Source of the DNA: Gammaproteobacteria bacterium
GTDB taxonomy: Bacteria > Pseudomonadota > Gammaproteobacteria > Steroidobacterales > PWYM01
Assembly (NCBI GenBank): GCA_003567475.1
Contig: PWZL01000039.1
Coordinates: 1-36,839 of the forward strand
Length of the DNA: 36,839 nucleotides
Direction: 5' to 3'
Positions 3,386 to 9,823 of this stretch are shown here, piece by piece. Each line of letters opens with the position of its first letter. Position 1 is the stretch's first letter. A program made the position numbers and the translations under genes. The notes under the pieces are model-generated. The model was not told where the DNA came from, did no database searches, and saw nothing but the letters and a program-made list of their open reading frames with translations.

Positions 3386-3428
3386 TTTCCGGGCAAACCC
3401 CTGCCAGGTGTCCGCGGAGGGACGGATC

Positions 3429-4253
3429 ATGACCGAGCAGGCTCACTGGCGAGTCGATGTGCTGCGCGCGCTGTTCATCCTTTGGGTGCTGATGGGCGTG
3501 TTGCTCGCGTCAGCCCGCGTGCTGCCGGTGCTGCCGGATGCCGGGGTGATCGCGATCTGCCTCCTGCTGGCGGTGCCTCTGGCGTGGCTGGGCTTCCTGC
3601 GTCGGCGGTTGCGGCGGGGGGCATTGCTCACGGTGGCACTGTCGCCGAAGAGCCCCTGGCAACGTCGCCTGCGCGGTGGTGCGCCGATGCTGTTGGGCCA
3701 GTGCCTGATCGCAGCGCTGCTCGCCTGGTGGCTGGTGCTGGGGCTGGTGCGCCTGGACGCGCGGTCGTTCTGGCTGCTGCTGATCGCCCTGATGCCGCTC
3801 TGGGTGCTGTTGCACCGTGCACTGCAACGCCGATTCGCGGTGCATGTGAACCGCCGCTTCCTGCGCATGGTCACAGACAGGGTGGCGGGTGTGCTGCTCG
3901 GGGTCGTGCTGCTGATCGCCCTGCTCGCACTGTCGTTTCATCGCCCGGTGCCGGCGCTCTCGGGGCTGAGCATCGAGGGCGCGCTGGCGGCCTACACGGC
4001 AGAGGTGACCGCTGACAGTGCGGTACTCGAAATCGGCCTGGTGGTCGCCGCCGCCGTGGAAGCCTTGCCACAGTGGTTTGCGCAGAACCTCGCCGTGGTG
4101 TTGCCCGGGACAGGCTGGCAGGTGCTGACCTGGACGCTGGTGCTGCTTCGCGAGTGGCTGGTGGTCTGGCCGCTGCTGCTGCTGGTGCAGGCGGTACACG
4201 GCTGGCTGGATCGACCCCGCCCTGAGCCGACAGGAGTAGCGCGCAGTGAATGA
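3429..4253 (+). CDS. Polytopic membrane protein, function unknown
   Basis: A 274-residue inner-membrane protein with about six hydrophobic segments: near residues 10-28, 37-55, 87-105, 108-126, 150-168 and 238-260. A basic patch (RRRLRRG) follows the second segment. I see no transporter signature, catalytic motif or recognised family. The start is the ATG at 3429 because GGAGG lies eight bases upstream. The gene overlaps the next one by eight bases, so the two are likely made together and may form one complex. No homologue comes to mind with confidence. Confidence 0.75.
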   Translation: MTEQAHWRVDVLRALFILWVLMGVLLASARVLPVLPDAGVIAICLLLAVPLAWLGFLRRRLRRGALLTVALSPKSPWQRRLRGGAPMLLGQCLIAALLAWWLVLGLVRLDARSFWLLLIALMPLWVLLHRALQRRFAVHVNRRFLRMVTDRVAGVLLGVVLLIALLALSFHRPVPALSGLSIEGALAAYTAEVTADSAVLEIGLVVAAAVEALPQWFAQNLAVVLPGTGWQVLTWTLVLLREWLVVWPLLLLVQAVHGWLDRPRPEPTGVARSE

Positions 4254-5304
4254 AAATGCAGTCATCGATGCCGGGGCACGTGCCTCCCCGCCTGCGGGAC
4301 TCGGCTACGGACTTGCCGCGCTGGCGGTGCTTGGGCTGCTGCTCTGGAGCGTGCTGGCGCCGGCGCCCTGGAGCGGGCTGGTGGCGCCGCGCATCGACGT
4401 CGCGGTAGAGGGGCGCGCCTACCGGGTGCCGGAGCCGGACTGGCGCGTCGCGCTGGCCGAGGCGCTGGCCGTGCTCTCGCGAGAGGAACAGGCGTTCGTC
4501 AGCGAGCTTGGCGAGAGGGTTGATCAACGGGTGAGTGCGCTGTTCGAGTTGCCGCAGGCCCAGATCGAACGCGTCGCGGACTTCTATTACTCGCCGGCAG
4601 GTCAACTCCTGCGCGTTGCCGGCGCACTGCCGGGTGAGGCGGCCGAGGCGAGGTTGCGCGAGGCGGTGGTGAACCGATTGTTCCCCGACGACGCCTGGCC
4701 GGACGCCGAGGCCGCCGTGCTGGCCGAGCTGGCCAGGTGGACTGCCGGTGGCGGCCGGGCGGTGATGGGGGCGACCAATGCGCGTCTCCATGACCTGCTG
4801 GCGCCGTGGCGCCGTGAGCTGCGCCGCAGCCCGCCGCCACCTCTGGCGCTCGATGTGAGCCTCGATGAATCGGCGGTGTACGACCGGCTCCTGGAAGACC
4901 CGGCGCTGGCCAGGCAGGTGGTCGTGTTTTCGACCGGCGCGTTGACGGCTGCGGCGGCGCGTCGTGCAGCACAGGCCGCAGCGGCGCGCACGGCAGGCCG
5001 GGGATCGGCGGGCGTGGTCGGGGCTGCCTGCGTGAGCACCGGCCCGTTCGCGTGGCTGTGCATGGGGGCGGTATTCACCGGCTCGGTGGTGGCAAGCGAA
5101 TATGTGGTGCTGCGTCTGGATGAGCATCGCAACCGGGCCGCCTTCGAGGCGGCGCTGCGCGAGGACCTCAAGCGCATGGAGCAGCAGGTGGCGGAGCGTC
5201 TGCACGCGGCCTACACGGGCGCGCTGCAGCGTGCTCTCGAGGACTCACGCGCTCGGATCCGTGACCACATCCGTCCGGTCGATACGCTCTCAGCGCCCGG
5301 GTGA
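4246..5304 (+). CDS. Membrane-anchored protein, function unknown
   Basis: A 352-residue protein starting at a GTG that overlaps the end of the upstream membrane-protein gene; AGGAG about ten bases upstream supports it. One transmembrane anchor lies near residues 20-40. A long helical, acidic region follows (about 50-250), then a Gly/Ala-rich hydrophobic stretch (about 251-290) that could be one or two further membrane segments. The C-terminal helix is charged and may be a coiled coil. An FYYSPAGQ segment near residue 110 recalls helical periplasmic domains, but I do not recognise the family. Orientation and overlap suggest it partners the upstream membrane protein. Confidence 0.7.
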   Translation: MNENAVIDAGARASPPAGLGYGLAALAVLGLLLWSVLAPAPWSGLVAPRIDVAVEGRAYRVPEPDWRVALAEALAVLSREEQAFVSELGERVDQRVSALFELPQAQIERVADFYYSPAGQLLRVAGALPGEAAEARLREAVVNRLFPDDAWPDAEAAVLAELARWTAGGGRAVMGATNARLHDLLAPWRRELRRSPPPPLALDVSLDESAVYDRLLEDPALARQVVVFSTGALTAAAARRAAQAAAARTAGRGSAGVVGAACVSTGPFAWLCMGAVFTGSVVASEYVVLRLDEHRNRAAFEAALREDLKRMEQQVAERLHAAYTGALQRALEDSRARIRDHIRPVDTLSAPG

Positions 5305-5364: not shown

Positions 5365-6615
5365 ATGGAATTCTCAGCGTTCGGTCGGCGTTATGCCCGG
5401 CACACCGGGGCTCTCGAGCTCATGGAGGATCTCGGCGCGGCGATGGCGCGCGGTGGGGTGCACATGCTCGGCGGCGGCAACCCGGCGCAGATCCCCGAGC
5501 TCGAGGCCGTGTACCGCGAAGAGATGGCGCGTGTGCTGGACGATCCCGCGCGCTTCCGGCGCATGCTCGGCAACTATGCCTCTCCTGGCGGTGAAGACCG
5601 GTTCCGCGAGGCGCTCGCGGCGCTGCTGAACGAGCATTACGGCTGGAACCTCAGCCCGGCCAACATCGCACTGACCGGCGGCAGTCAATCGGGATTCTTT
5701 CAGTTGTTCAACCTGCTCGCAGGCGAGATGCCGGACGGGAGCCGCCGACGGATTCTGCTGCCGCTGACCCCCGAATACATCGGCTATGGGGATACAGGCG
5801 TCAGCACGGGCATGTTCAGTGCCCGCCGGCCCGAGATCGAGCTGCTCGATGAGCGCATGTTCAAGTATCGGGTCGATTTTGACGCCCTGCAGCCGGGCAG
5901 CGACACCGCGGCGATCTGTGTTTCCCGGCCCACCAATCCGACCGGTAACGTGCTCACCGATGATGAAATGACCCGGCTGTCAGCCATTGCCCGGGCCCGC
6001 GGTCTGCCGCTGATCATCGACAATGCCTACGGTCTGCCCTTTCCCCGGATCGTCTTCAACGAGATCAACCTGCACTGGGATGACAACACCATCCTCTGCA
6101 TGAGTCTCTCGAAGATCGGCCTGCCCGCTGTGCGTTGCGGGATTGTCATCGCCCGCGAGGAGATCGTGCAGGCGCTGACGGCCATGAACGCGGTGATGAG
6201 CCTCGCGGTGCCCAGCGTGGGGCCGGTGCTCCTGGAACGACTGCTGGCCAGCGGGGAGCTGCTGCGGCTGAGCCACGAGGTCATCCGTCCCTTTTACCAG
6301 GCCCGTGCCGAACGCGCCGTGGCCTGGGTGCACGAGTCGCTGGCGGGGTGTGACTACCGTATCCATCGCCCCGAAGGTGCCCTGTTCCTGTGGTTGTGGT
6401 TCCCTGGGTTGCCGATTTCAAGCCAGGTGCTTTACGAGCGGCTCAAGGCACGTGGGGTGCTGGTGCTCTCCGGGCATTATTTCTTCCCCGGTCTGGAAGA
6501 GGATGACTGGCGGCACAAACAGGAATGCATTCGCGTGACGTACTCCCAGGACGAGGCTACGGTGCGCGAGGGGATTCGCATCGTGGGTGAGGAAGTCCGC
6601 GCAGCTGCGGGCTGA
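5365..6615 (+). CDS. avtA: Valine--pyruvate aminotransferase
   Basis: A 416-residue fold-type I PLP aminotransferase that matches AvtA over its length. AvtA transfers the amino group between valine and pyruvate, forming alanine and 2-ketoisovalerate, in the cytoplasm. Landmarks are the N-terminal GGGNPAQIP, GNYASPGG, TGGSQSG (phosphate site), RPTNPTGN (residues 188-195), IIDNAYG with D219 and Y222, and the PLP lysine K250 in SLSKIGLP followed by RCG. It is the first gene of a run in which the amidase starts ten bases after its stop. AvtA makes alanine, a building block of murein, which may explain the linkage to an amidase (inference). The 60-base gap upstream holds its own -10 box. Confidence 0.95.
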   Translation: MEFSAFGRRYARHTGALELMEDLGAAMARGGVHMLGGGNPAQIPELEAVYREEMARVLDDPARFRRMLGNYASPGGEDRFREALAALLNEHYGWNLSPANIALTGGSQSGFFQLFNLLAGEMPDGSRRRILLPLTPEYIGYGDTGVSTGMFSARRPEIELLDERMFKYRVDFDALQPGSDTAAICVSRPTNPTGNVLTDDEMTRLSAIARARGLPLIIDNAYGLPFPRIVFNEINLHWDDNTILCMSLSKIGLPAVRCGIVIAREEIVQALTAMNAVMSLAVPSVGPVLLERLLASGELLRLSHEVIRPFYQARAERAVAWVHESLAGCDYRIHRPEGALFLWLWFPGLPISSQVLYERLKARGVLVLSGHYFFPGLEEDDWRHKQECIRVTYSQDEATVREGIRIVGEEVRAAAG

Positions 6616-6625
6616 AAGGGTTCTG

Positions 6626-7486
6626 ATGACACGCACCAGGGTCGGGGCAGCAGGCGCCGGTGAGGATCGCCGGCTGTGCCGGCTGTTGCCGACGATCTGC
6701 CTCGGTCTGGCACTGGTCGCCTGCTCCACGGCGCCGCCGATCGATACCCGCTACCGCGCGCAAAGCGAGGGCAGTCGCGTCCAGTTCATCATCCTGCATT
6801 TCACCTGGGACGACTGGGAGAACTCACTGCAGATTCTTACTCAGGGCCCGGTCAGCAGTCATTATCTGGTGCGCGATGATCCGGTGCGGATCCATCGGCT
6901 GGTGGACGAGTCGCGCCGGGCGTTTCACGCCGGCGAGAGCGCCTGGCAGGGGCATGGTTCACTGAACGCCGCGTCCATCGGCATCGAGATCGTCAATGCC
7001 GGCAATCGTCTCGCTGATCAGGGGATCGACTGGCAGCCTTATCCGGAGGCACAGATCGACGCCGTCATCGAATTGGTCCGCTGGATTGCCGAGCGCCACG
7101 GGGTCCAGCCCGAGAACATTCTGGGCCACAGCGATATCGCCCCCCAGCGCAAGCTGGATCCCGGACCGCGCTTTCCCTGGCATCGTCTCGCGGAGGCGGG
7201 GTTGATCCCCTGGCCGGACGCGTCGGCCGTCGTCGCCAGGCGCGTCGAGTTCGACCATGCGCTGCCTGACATCGCCTGGTTTCAGGCGCGGCTGGCGGTT
7301 CATGGCTACCGGGTGCCCCAGCATGGTGAGTTTGACGAAGACACCCGGCGGGTGATCGCGGCCTTCCAGATGCGCTTCCGTCAGGCGCGCTACGACGGCA
7401 TGCCCGATGCCGAGACCGCGGCCATCCTGGCGGTACTGACCGACGCCAACAAGCTTTCCGTACAGCTCATGGAGACCGCGCAGTGA
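6626..7486 (+). CDS. amiD: N-acetylmuramoyl-L-alanine amidase lipoprotein, AmiD type
   Basis: A 286-residue zinc amidase that cleaves the bond between MurNAc (or anhydro-MurNAc) and L-Ala in murein fragments. The N-terminus is a lipoprotein signal ending LALVAC, with lipidated C33 followed by Ser, which favours the outer membrane facing the periplasm. The Amidase_2 domain spans about residues 50-190 with metal ligands H58 (ILHFTW), H168 (LGHSD) and D178 (KLDPG), and E121 in GIEIVN. A C-terminal peptidoglycan-binding domain (about 215-275) contains WFQARLAVHGY and AFQMRF. I chose the ATG at 6626 because GAAAGGG lies six bases upstream and the signal peptide follows directly. Its stop overlaps the GTG of the ferrochelatase-like gene. 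Confidence 0.92.
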   Translation: MTRTRVGAAGAGEDRRLCRLLPTICLGLALVACSTAPPIDTRYRAQSEGSRVQFIILHFTWDDWENSLQILTQGPVSSHYLVRDDPVRIHRLVDESRRAFHAGESAWQGHGSLNAASIGIEIVNAGNRLADQGIDWQPYPEAQIDAVIELVRWIAERHGVQPENILGHSDIAPQRKLDPGPRFPWHRLAEAGLIPWPDASAVVARRVEFDHALPDIAWFQARLAVHGYRVPQHGEFDEDTRRVIAAFQMRFRQARYDGMPDAETAAILAVLTDANKLSVQLMETAQ

Positions 7487-8529
7487 CCGCTGGCAAGCAG
7501 GGTGTGGACGATCCGGTAAGGCGACGGGTCACGGTGATCCTGGCCGCCCACGGCGAGGCCGAGACGCCCGGATTTCGTGAGAACTTTCTGGTGGGGCATC
7601 GAACCCTGGCGCACGTGGCCGAGGTCATGCCGCTGCCAGCGCCGGTGCGTCTGCTCATCTGCGCGATCGGCGCGGCGCGCAAGCGCCTTGCCGGCGGTGA
7701 CGGGTCGCCGCACAACGCACTGACGCGCCGGCAGGCGGCGGCCCTGGGCGAGCAGCTTGGCGGGGATACGGCCAGCACCTTCCGGGTGCTGCCCGCGTTC
7801 GGTTCATCGTTGCCACGGGTTGAAACACTGCTGGATGCCGAAGAGGCAGACGTGCTGCGGATCGTGCTGTCTATGACGCCGATCGATTCACATCTGGCCT
7901 GCGGCAGGCTCTGCCATCATCTCAGCCGGCCCGAGTCGCTTGCCGGCAAGGTGCACGTCCTCGCGCGCCTCTGGGATGACCGTGACTTCATCGGCGTCAA
8001 TGTCGAACATGTGTTCTCCCAGCTCGAGCTGCCGGGCAACTCCGGGCGCTGCGCCCTGGTGCTGGTCATGCACGGCACGCTGGTCCGCGATGCCAAGGGG
8101 CGGGTGCCCGACTTCCATACCGGTGTGCAGGAGTCGGCGATTTACGCAGGGCGTCTGCGAGAAGCCCTTGCGACCGATCCGCGCAGCCCGTTCGCCCGGA
8201 TCGAGATTGCTCACCTCAATCATGATGTCGGCGGTGAATGGACCCGTCCCACGCTCGAGCACGTCCTCGAGCGGTTGGCTGCGGAGGGCGTGGATGCAGT
8301 GGCCGCCTATCCTTGCGAGTATCTGGTGGACGGCAGCGACACCGTTGGCAGGGTGGCTGACGCCCTGGCCGCAAGCGGTATCCGTCAGACGCAGCGTCTG
8401 TCCTGTCTTAACGACTCGCCTGGTCTTGTGGCCCTGTTGGCGCAACGCGTCCAGGCACTTGTCGCGGCGCCCGCGGAGGGCCTGTCCCGGCGCTGCGACG
8501 CCTGTCCGCGCACCGCGACCGGCTCGTGA
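7483..8529 (+). CDS. Divergent ferrochelatase-like protein (HemH superfamily)
   Basis: A 348-residue protein with the two-lobed chelatase pattern of HemH. The conserved His loop appears as VMHGT (H197). The C-terminal block GEWTRPT, then LAAEGVDAVAAYPCEYLVDGSDT, follows the family order W-x-x-P-T, then P-G-F-V-x-D-x-x-E-T. Differences are marked: the usual glycine before the aromatic is Glu (E279), and the usual catalytic Glu aligns with D286. The usual N-terminal N-L-G-T-P is replaced by AAHGEAETP. The tail holds a C-x-x-C pair (C338, C341). True ferrochelatases insert Fe2+ into protoporphyrin IX; whether this one does is doubtful. It starts on a GTG in a four-base GTGA overlap with the amidase, and its stop overlaps the next GTG in the same way. 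Confidence 0.75.
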   Translation: MTAGKQGVDDPVRRRVTVILAAHGEAETPGFRENFLVGHRTLAHVAEVMPLPAPVRLLICAIGAARKRLAGGDGSPHNALTRRQAAALGEQLGGDTASTFRVLPAFGSSLPRVETLLDAEEADVLRIVLSMTPIDSHLACGRLCHHLSRPESLAGKVHVLARLWDDRDFIGVNVEHVFSQLELPGNSGRCALVLVMHGTLVRDAKGRVPDFHTGVQESAIYAGRLREALATDPRSPFARIEIAHLNHDVGGEWTRPTLEHVLERLAAEGVDAVAAYPCEYLVDGSDTVGRVADALAASGIRQTQRLSCLNDSPGLVALLAQRVQALVAAPAEGLSRRCDACPRTATGS

Positions 8530-9335
8530 GTGCGGACGGCGTCGCGGGCGCGCGGCGCTTTGGTCGCTACATCGGTATCGACTATTCCGGAGCGGCGACC
8601 CCTGAGACGGGCCTGCCGGGTCTGCGCGTGTACCTCTCCACCCCGCTGCGCGCGCCGCGCGAGGTGCCGCCGCCAGCCGCCGGTCGACGGCGGCACTGGA
8701 GTCGGCGCGCCGTCGCCGAATGGCTGGCACGGACGCTCGCAGCGGACACGCCGACCGTCGTCGGCATCGATCATGGCTTGTCCTTTCCCCAGGCCTGGTT
8801 CGAGCGTCATGGCCTGTCGCCAGACTGGGAGGCCTTCCTGGTCGATTTCCAGGCGCACTGGCCGTGCGATCTCGAGGGGGTACGCGTGGAAGACATTCGC
8901 CGAGGCCGACTGGGCCACGCGGCCACGCGCTCGGGTGACTCGCGCTGGCGGCGGCTCGCCGAACGGCGAAGTGGCGCGGCCAAGTCGGTGTTTCACTTCG
9001 ACGTTCAGGGGTCGGTGGCCAAGTCCACTCACGCGGGGCTGCCCTGGGTGCTGCAACTGCGCCGCCGGCTGGGAACGCGTCTGCATGTCTGGCCTTTCGA
9101 TGGCTGGCAGCCGCCCTCCGTCGGTGCCGTGCTCGCGGAAGCCTACCCGCGGCTCTACAGCGATGCCTATCCGCCCCGCGGGCGGACGCCGGATCAGCAG
9201 GATGCCTACAGCATCGCCGCCTGGCTGCGCGATCGGGACGGCGACGGGACGCTGGGGGCGCTGTTCTGCCCGGCACTGGCGCCCGAGATGCTCAGGCTCG
9301 CCGGCACCGAGGGCTGGGTGCTCGGGGTACGCTGA
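8526..9335 (+). CDS. DUF429-like protein with an RNase H-type fold
   Basis: A 269-residue protein whose pattern resembles the DUF429 group of RNase H-like proteins. An N-terminal strand carries an acidic residue (YIGIDYSGA, D19), a second strand carries another (VVGIDHGLSFP, D82), and a late helix is Asp-rich (TPDQQDAYSIAAWL). Such Asp clusters in this fold usually bind divalent metal and cut nucleic acid, but no function is established for the group and the assignment is tentative. The region between about residues 110 and 170 is Arg-rich. Translation starts on a GTG overlapping the previous stop (GTGA), so it is coupled to the ferrochelatase-like gene. It appears to be the last gene of the avtA run, since 98 bases follow before the next start. 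Confidence 0.6.
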   Translation: MSADGVAGARRFGRYIGIDYSGAATPETGLPGLRVYLSTPLRAPREVPPPAAGRRRHWSRRAVAEWLARTLAADTPTVVGIDHGLSFPQAWFERHGLSPDWEAFLVDFQAHWPCDLEGVRVEDIRRGRLGHAATRSGDSRWRRLAERRSGAAKSVFHFDVQGSVAKSTHAGLPWVLQLRRRLGTRLHVWPFDGWQPPSVGAVLAEAYPRLYSDAYPPRGRTPDQQDAYSIAAWLRDRDGDGTLGALFCPALAPEMLRLAGTEGWVLGVR

Positions 9336-9433
9336 TCACACTTGCGTGCAGCGATCATCCGTACTTTTCCTGATGTTACCGTGCCGATGGCGTCTTCATA
9401 GTCAAAGCCACTGCCGGTCATACGGAGCGCGTG

Positions 9434-9823
9434 ATGATTACCCTCAACGTCAATCCCGAGAACATCGAGCGGCTCATCCTGCTCGGACGGGAATTCCACG
9501 CGCAGGATACCGTGGTGATCCCGGAGGAGCCGATCGGGCCTTCCGACGAAGGCGCGCGTCACATGCTCTCGCACCGTCGTGGTGACATGTCACTGGACGA
9601 GTTCCGCTCGATCATCGCGGATCTCGAGCCGGATCAACAGGCCGAGGTCGTGGCGGTCATGTGGGTCGGGCGTGGCGACTACGAGACGGACGAGTGGGAG
9701 GATGTCGTGCAGCAGGCTCAGGAGCAGTGGACGCCGTGGACAGCCGATTACCTGATCGCGCATCCATTGCTGCCGCACTACCTCTCCGAAGGGCTCGAGT
9801 CGCTGGGCTACGACGTCGACTGA
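9434..9823 (+). CDS. DUF3775 family protein
   Basis: A 129-residue acidic, soluble protein that fits DUF3775 along its length. It has an N-terminal helix with GREFHAQD, a linker with PSDEGARHML, a central ADLEPDQQAEVVAVMWVGRGDY and a C-terminal LIAHPLLPHYLSEGLESLGYDV. The function of the family is unknown; small size and acidity suggest a cytoplasmic adaptor or stress protein. I chose the ATG at 9434 rather than the GTG one codon earlier because GGAG then lies six bases upstream. The 98-base gap before it shows no convincing promoter. The convergent Crp/Fnr gene ends 44 bases downstream. Confidence 0.85.
   Translation: MITLNVNPENIERLILLGREFHAQDTVVIPEEPIGPSDEGARHMLSHRRGDMSLDEFRSIIADLEPDQQAEVVAVMWVGRGDYETDEWEDVVQQAQEQWTPWTADYLIAHPLLPHYLSEGLESLGYDVD

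Follow-up and report, generated by a model that had tools for sequence, protein, structure and literature searches.

Known relatives of the gene considered here include the ferrochelatases (HemH, FECH, and CpfC; PF00762 and TIGR00109). In the human enzyme, the metal is thought to be bound on the side of Met76, opposite the catalytic His263; most M76 variants retain residual activity in vivo, and the E343D substitution affects a step that follows chelation (review PMC9133952). Tyr13 of the Bacillus subtilis enzyme is a determinant of the apparent metal specificity, according to work cited in the same review. The motif of the [2Fe-2S] ferrochelatases is C-x(1,11)-C-x(1,11)-C, located in the insertion or in the tail (PMC8529089). 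Among the class II chelatases (SirB, CbiX, and CfbA; PF01903), the R134H substitution in SirB, which adds a histidine in the C-terminal half, increases the nickel-chelatase activity and imitates the arrangement of CfbA (PMC11301274).

We analysed a window of 36,839 nucleotides from a gammaproteobacterial genome (contig PWZL01000039.1), in which an earlier note, made from the sequence alone, had pointed out a ferrochelatase-like gene whose product may be a relative with a new substrate or a non-catalytic protein. We hold, with confidence about evenly balanced, that the product of this gene and of its two orthologs (the gamma proteins) is an accessory tetrapyrrole metal chelatase with the HemH fold, which belongs to the type A family of the Chlorobi and is additional to the ferrochelatase of the host.

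Table 1. Features of the chelatase locus (positions in the window)
Feature	Positions	Strand	Evidence
avtA, valine-pyruvate transaminase	5365..6615	+	NF006964, 618.5 bits (cut-off 467)
AmiD-like lipoprotein amidase (Amidase_2 and PG_binding_1)	6626..7486	+	Pfam; lipobox LALVAC-S read from the sequence; stop overlaps chelatase start
Ferrochelatase-like protein of type A (348 aa, starts with GTG)	7483..8529	+	PF00762 93.8 bits; TIGR00109 33.6 bits; AlphaFold2 pLDDT 84; Z 29.2; dN/dS 0.18-0.22
His23, putative metal-side residue	7549..7551	+	Alignment columns; structural-alignment offsets at strand 1
His197, predicted catalytic base (human His263, B. subtilis His183)	8071..8073	+	Same residue in every group
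Glu279 replacing Gly	8317..8319	+	Gamma only; Gly invariant in all other groups
Asp286 replacing the catalytic Glu (human Glu343, B. subtilis Glu264)	8338..8340	+	Gamma only, 3/3
C-x-x-C tail, Cys338 and Cys341	8494..8505	+	Shared by all three gamma orthologs, lacking in Chlorobi
ORF formerly labelled DUF429-like	8526..9335	+	Four-base overlap with chelatase stop; absent in the third genome
DUF3775 protein	9431..9823	+	PF12616, 102.6 bits; next conserved downstream gene in all three genomes

Identity and predicted fold of the chelatase-like protein

The reading frame of the gene is real, and its product matches PF00762 over residues 17 to 324 with a score far above chance expectation and above the Pfam cut-off of 27 bits. 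The score with the hemH equivalog model TIGR00109 is far under the cut-off of 124.6 bits. PF00762 was the only family found when Pfam was searched up to an E value of 1, with no match to the class II families PF01903 and PF06180 (SirB/CbiX/CbiK). A search of the PDB with the sequence of this protein alone gave nothing useful, while profile and fold searches did succeed. The HemH markers reported in the earlier note are all present in the translation (VMHGT, W253-T-R-P-T, and the late P-x-x-x-x-V-D block, P277-CEYLV-D283).

The values of dN/dS among the three gamma orthologs indicate purifying selection on the chelatase gene, which rules out a pseudogene; the constraint is similar to that on amiD and lower than that on avtA. 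Contamination of the bin was ruled out by the occurrence of the same neighbours in three separate assemblies and by the matching G+C content (0.677 for the gene and 0.681 for the window). A plasmid-borne origin was rejected, no match being found among 72,556 plasmid records.

A canonical hemH was found on another contig of the host genome (387 bits), so that the gene of the window is not the housekeeping ferrochelatase, which supports the suggestion of the earlier note that it may encode a separate chelatase relative. A sister genome also carries a canonical hemH (391 bits), and in the third genome the match spans only half of the model, perhaps because the gene is cut by a contig end. The chelatase-like gene is retained in a gammaproteobacterial genus that already has its own ferrochelatase.

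The AlphaFold2 model of the protein, made from 15 sequences, has a pTM of 0.83 and predicts the HemH fold along the full length. Comparison of this model with solved structures showed that human ferrochelatase (1hrk) is the nearest, with a Z score of 29.2 and an rmsd of 3.2 over 317 aligned residues, followed by the B. subtilis and Listeria ferrochelatases (Z about 25 to 26), SirB (Z 19), and CbiX and CbiK (Z 16 to 17). Foldseek agreed with the superposition of the predicted model on ferrochelatase.

Distribution and ancestry

An order-wide search found relatives at E < 1e-10 in 3 of 196 genomes, all of the same genus; the gene is carried by three of the five genomes of this genus, which make up the whole family sample. 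The genome of the window was the sole carrier in a sample of 398 Pseudomonadota. A motif scan of 84,980 species, which is blind to motif variants and by itself defines the range beyond the Pseudomonadota and the Bacteroidota/Chlorobiota group, found members outside the genus in green sulfur bacteria only, with 37-44% identity. When the 296 genomes of the phylum-level group to which a Chlorobi genome belongs were searched with a profile, 75 contained members.

Most of the Chlorobi carriers have two paralogs, type A, which is the nearest to the protein of the window, and type B. When PF00762 was used on 13 Chlorobi genomes, 12 contained only types A and B and one contained type A alone, and canonical HemH was missing from all 13; green sulfur bacteria thus appear to have two divergent ferrochelatases and no canonical one. 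In some Chlorobi genomes, presumably Chlorobaculum tepidum TLS and Chlorobium luteolum, type B is whole and type A is broken by an internal deletion or unmatched. This argues that type B is likely the Chlorobi ferrochelatase and type A likely a dispensable paralog; since types A and B are also the sole PF00762 proteins, the Chlorobi ferrochelatase very likely belongs to the A/B branch of this family. No description of the type A and B proteins of the Chlorobi was found in the literature, and Chlorobi are not mentioned in a published survey of ferrochelatases (PMC8529089).

Maximum-likelihood analysis of 80 proteins placed the three gamma sequences in one clade that grouped with Chlorobi type A (support 98/98), and type B and an intermediate group fell outside. 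The outgroup, canonical HemH, has a long branch, which makes the root less sure than the grouping. With HemH as the outgroup, this grouping makes a transfer of the gene from the Chlorobi to the gammaproteobacterial genus likely, and the host-like G+C content of the gene suggests that the transfer is probably old.

Type A genes of the Chlorobiaceae lie behind a gene for an RND-type periplasmic adaptor, often before that of a NYN protein, and near a CbiMN-CbiQ-CbiO importer. In two deep Chlorobi lineages, type A is followed by ExbB-ExbD-ExbD-TonB. No context recurs across phyla, so that gene context does not fix the function of type A.

Two observations concern individual Chlorobi loci. In the presumed C. 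tepidum TLS genome, a remnant of type A with an internal deletion and a frame change is flanked by an intact RND adaptor gene and the NYN gene (L127, G709:C1:483100-484800). The type B gene overlaps an upstream PAP2-like gene at loci L082, L084, L087, and similar ones, with a TPR gene downstream in some.

Active-site residues and tail

His23 was placed by means of the constant offset at the start of the ranges aligned with the human, B. subtilis, and SirB structures; presuming a gapless strand 1, it falls on human Met76, B. subtilis Tyr13, and SirB His10. In the alignment, column 23 is a histidine in the three gamma proteins, in all 38 Chlorobi type A proteins, and in the seven intermediates, a tyrosine in 29 of 30 type B proteins, and a leucine in the canonical HemH of the genus itself. 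Type A would naturally have a histidine in each half, as does SirB R134H, the one in the C-terminal half being a putative equivalent.

The earlier note had read a glutamate for a glycine and an aspartate for a glutamate in the catalytic loop, and both substitutions are common to the three gamma orthologs. Column 286 is a glutamate in all 38 Chlorobi type A proteins, the seven intermediates, the 30 type B proteins, and canonical HemH. The motif that contains this residue changes from DGNET in Chlorobi type A to DGSDT or EGSDT in the gamma branch, which is also the only one with a histidine at column 244. The combination of the Glu to Asp and Gly to Glu substitutions, found in the gamma branch only, may have abolished turnover. 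The different N-terminal loop, also pointed out previously, is indeed seen, but it is mostly a feature of a whole Chlorobi family rather than private to the gamma gene.

The C-x-x-C tail had been recognised correctly (RRCDACP). A [2Fe-2S] site like that of human ferrochelatase was rejected, the tail having two cysteines where the published motif has three; Cys140 and Cys144 could be two further candidate ligands.

Ser75 corresponds to human Ser130, one of the propionate-binding set Arg115, Tyr123, and Ser130. The loop carrying Arg115 and Tyr123 is 7-10 residues shorter in the protein of the window and is not safely alignable. Because the short loop is common to type A, type B, and the intermediates, it does not distinguish type A from the protein that is likely to be the Chlorobi ferrochelatase.

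Comparison with HemH, FECH, and CpfC showed that the gamma protein shares with these enzymes the full-length fold, the catalytic histidine, the serine of the GSP loop, and the late N-D block, whereas it differs by its low identity to the solved enzymes (12-16% in structural alignment), its metal-side histidine, its Asp for Glu, its shorter propionate loop, its TIGR00109 score, and its coexistence with a canonical HemH. With types A and B of the Chlorobi it shares the motifs AHGEAET, GSPxN, HGTLV, NHDVGGEW, and CLND, and it is linked to type A by His23, NHDVGGEW, the level of identity, and the tree; unlike both types, it has Asp286, Glu279, the C-x-x-C tail, and other gene neighbours. With SirB, CbiX, and CfbA it has in common a related fold and His23, which falls in the metal site of the N-terminal half, but it is longer, also has the HemH-type histidine, and does not match their Pfam families.

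Type A, a putative chelatase family, differs naturally at the position reported to govern metal preference in B. subtilis ferrochelatase; it likely moved to another phylum, where its catalytic glutamate was then replaced. This provides a test, made by nature and kept under selection, of what the metal-side residue and Glu343 do, and raises the question of the purpose of a second chelatase.

Gene neighbourhood in the gammaproteobacterial genomes

The earlier note had placed the gene behind avtA and after an AmiD lipoprotein gene, with four-base overlaps on both sides, and all of this was found (Table 1), the overlaps being GTGA at positions 7483-7486 and 8526-8529. An alternative start of amiD is the GTG at 6587; the ATG at 6626, which lies shortly behind the avtA stop, is the more likely one. 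The DUF429-like label given to the ORF that follows the chelatase gene was dropped, as Pfam returned no match, the only NCBIfam hit, against the PRK14495 tail, was weak (27.6 bits for a cut-off of 596), and the AlphaFold2 model was unusable (pLDDT 37). This ORF contains the motifs GIDYSGA and QQDAYSIAAW and is 81% identical in one sister genome.

An undescribed cell-envelope operon had also been suggested. The avtA-amiD-chelatase order, continued by DUF3775, is indeed kept in the three genomes that carry the chelatase, but in one of them the intervening ORF is missing and the chelatase gene starts a few bases past the amiD stop, with no overlap. The other amiD genes of the order stand without a chelatase neighbour, and the Chlorobi relatives adjoin quite different genes. 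In the two congeners without the chelatase gene, amiD was not matched either; gain and loss of the two genes may be coupled, the sample of five genomes being too small to decide. Co-transcription of amiD and the chelatase gene is probable, and a link to murein beyond that is unsupported. No tetrapyrrole pathway is apparent from the genes around the chelatase.

The DUF3775 protein is more conserved than avtA, with 94-96% identity between species and a dN/dS of about 0.03-0.07. Upstream of avtA, two overlapping ORFs (3408-4253 and 4246-5304) are 70-83% identical in the three genomes and match no Pfam family.

Possible functions of the gamma protein

Our best reading is that the gamma protein is a chelatase in which metal handling is altered and product release slow. 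The porphyrin would be clamped in the cleft and a divalent metal, most likely iron and possibly cobalt, nickel, or zinc, would be held on the side of His23, Glu25, and Glu27; His197 would take the pyrrole protons from the opposite side, and the metal would go in. The shortened Asp286 of the gamma branch would slow the step after insertion, by comparison with human E343D, so that the product may be passed on or retained by the protein. The two gamma-only active-site substitutions, the shortened propionate loop, and the neighbours without a tetrapyrrole link count against a chelatase.

The main rival, which we find doubtful, is a protein that has lost turnover and binds haem or porphyrin as a trap, carrier, or sensor. 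His23 and His197, both invariant in type A, lie opposite one another in the cleft and might coordinate the haem iron from both sides, and Asp286 and Glu279 would stop release; these gamma-only changes affect two otherwise invariant active-site columns and are under purifying selection, and the human E343D variant is impaired after chelation (PMC9133952). However, the catalytic glutamate is kept in Chlorobi type A, so that the ancestor was probably an enzyme, and aspartate is the mildest replacement for glutamate. It is unlikely that type A, with a CfbA-like pair of histidines contributed by the two halves of the fold (at the positions of SirB His10 and HemH His183), inserts a metal other than iron (such as cobalt, nickel, or zinc) into a porphyrin to give an undescribed metalloporphyrin in the Chlorobi and the gamma genus.

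We give little credence to a reverse chelatase that removes iron from haem for iron supply. The ExbB-ExbD-TonB proteins, encoded next to type A at the two deep Chlorobi loci, are machinery that serves iron and haem uptake, but this context is not general in the Chlorobi and is absent in the gamma genomes, where no reductant partner adjoins the gene. HmuS, a chelatase homologue from a different class, is known to strip haem of its iron (PMC12583661), an analogy only for the possible use of such a homologue on haem, as HmuS is unrelated and belongs to a class of larger proteins (CobN).

A protein tied to murein or the envelope, with a role dictated by amiD, is very improbable: the four-base overlap in two of three genomes and the joint presence of both genes in three congeners and joint lack of a match in two favour it, but the sample is five genomes from a single genus, homologues of amiD in the rest of the order lack the chelatase as a neighbour, and no amidase lies beside the Chlorobi relatives examined. 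A cobalt chelatase for cobalamin is hardly credible despite the cobalt/nickel importer near type A in the Chlorobiaceae, as type A did not co-occur with CbiC, CbiK, or CbiX in 33 genomes: CbiC is absent from ten of the tested genomes with type A, three genomes with CbiC lack a whole type A, and CbiK or CbiX is already present in each genome that has CbiC.

Separately, two parts matching CobN/BchH (PF02514) were seen at loci L157 (G000:C28:30354-32114) and L156 (G000:C77:51926-53191), one with a signal-peptide-like start and the other with a membrane-anchor-like stretch at its end; together they may represent a single secreted, HmuS-like homologue of chelatases that is divided between contigs.
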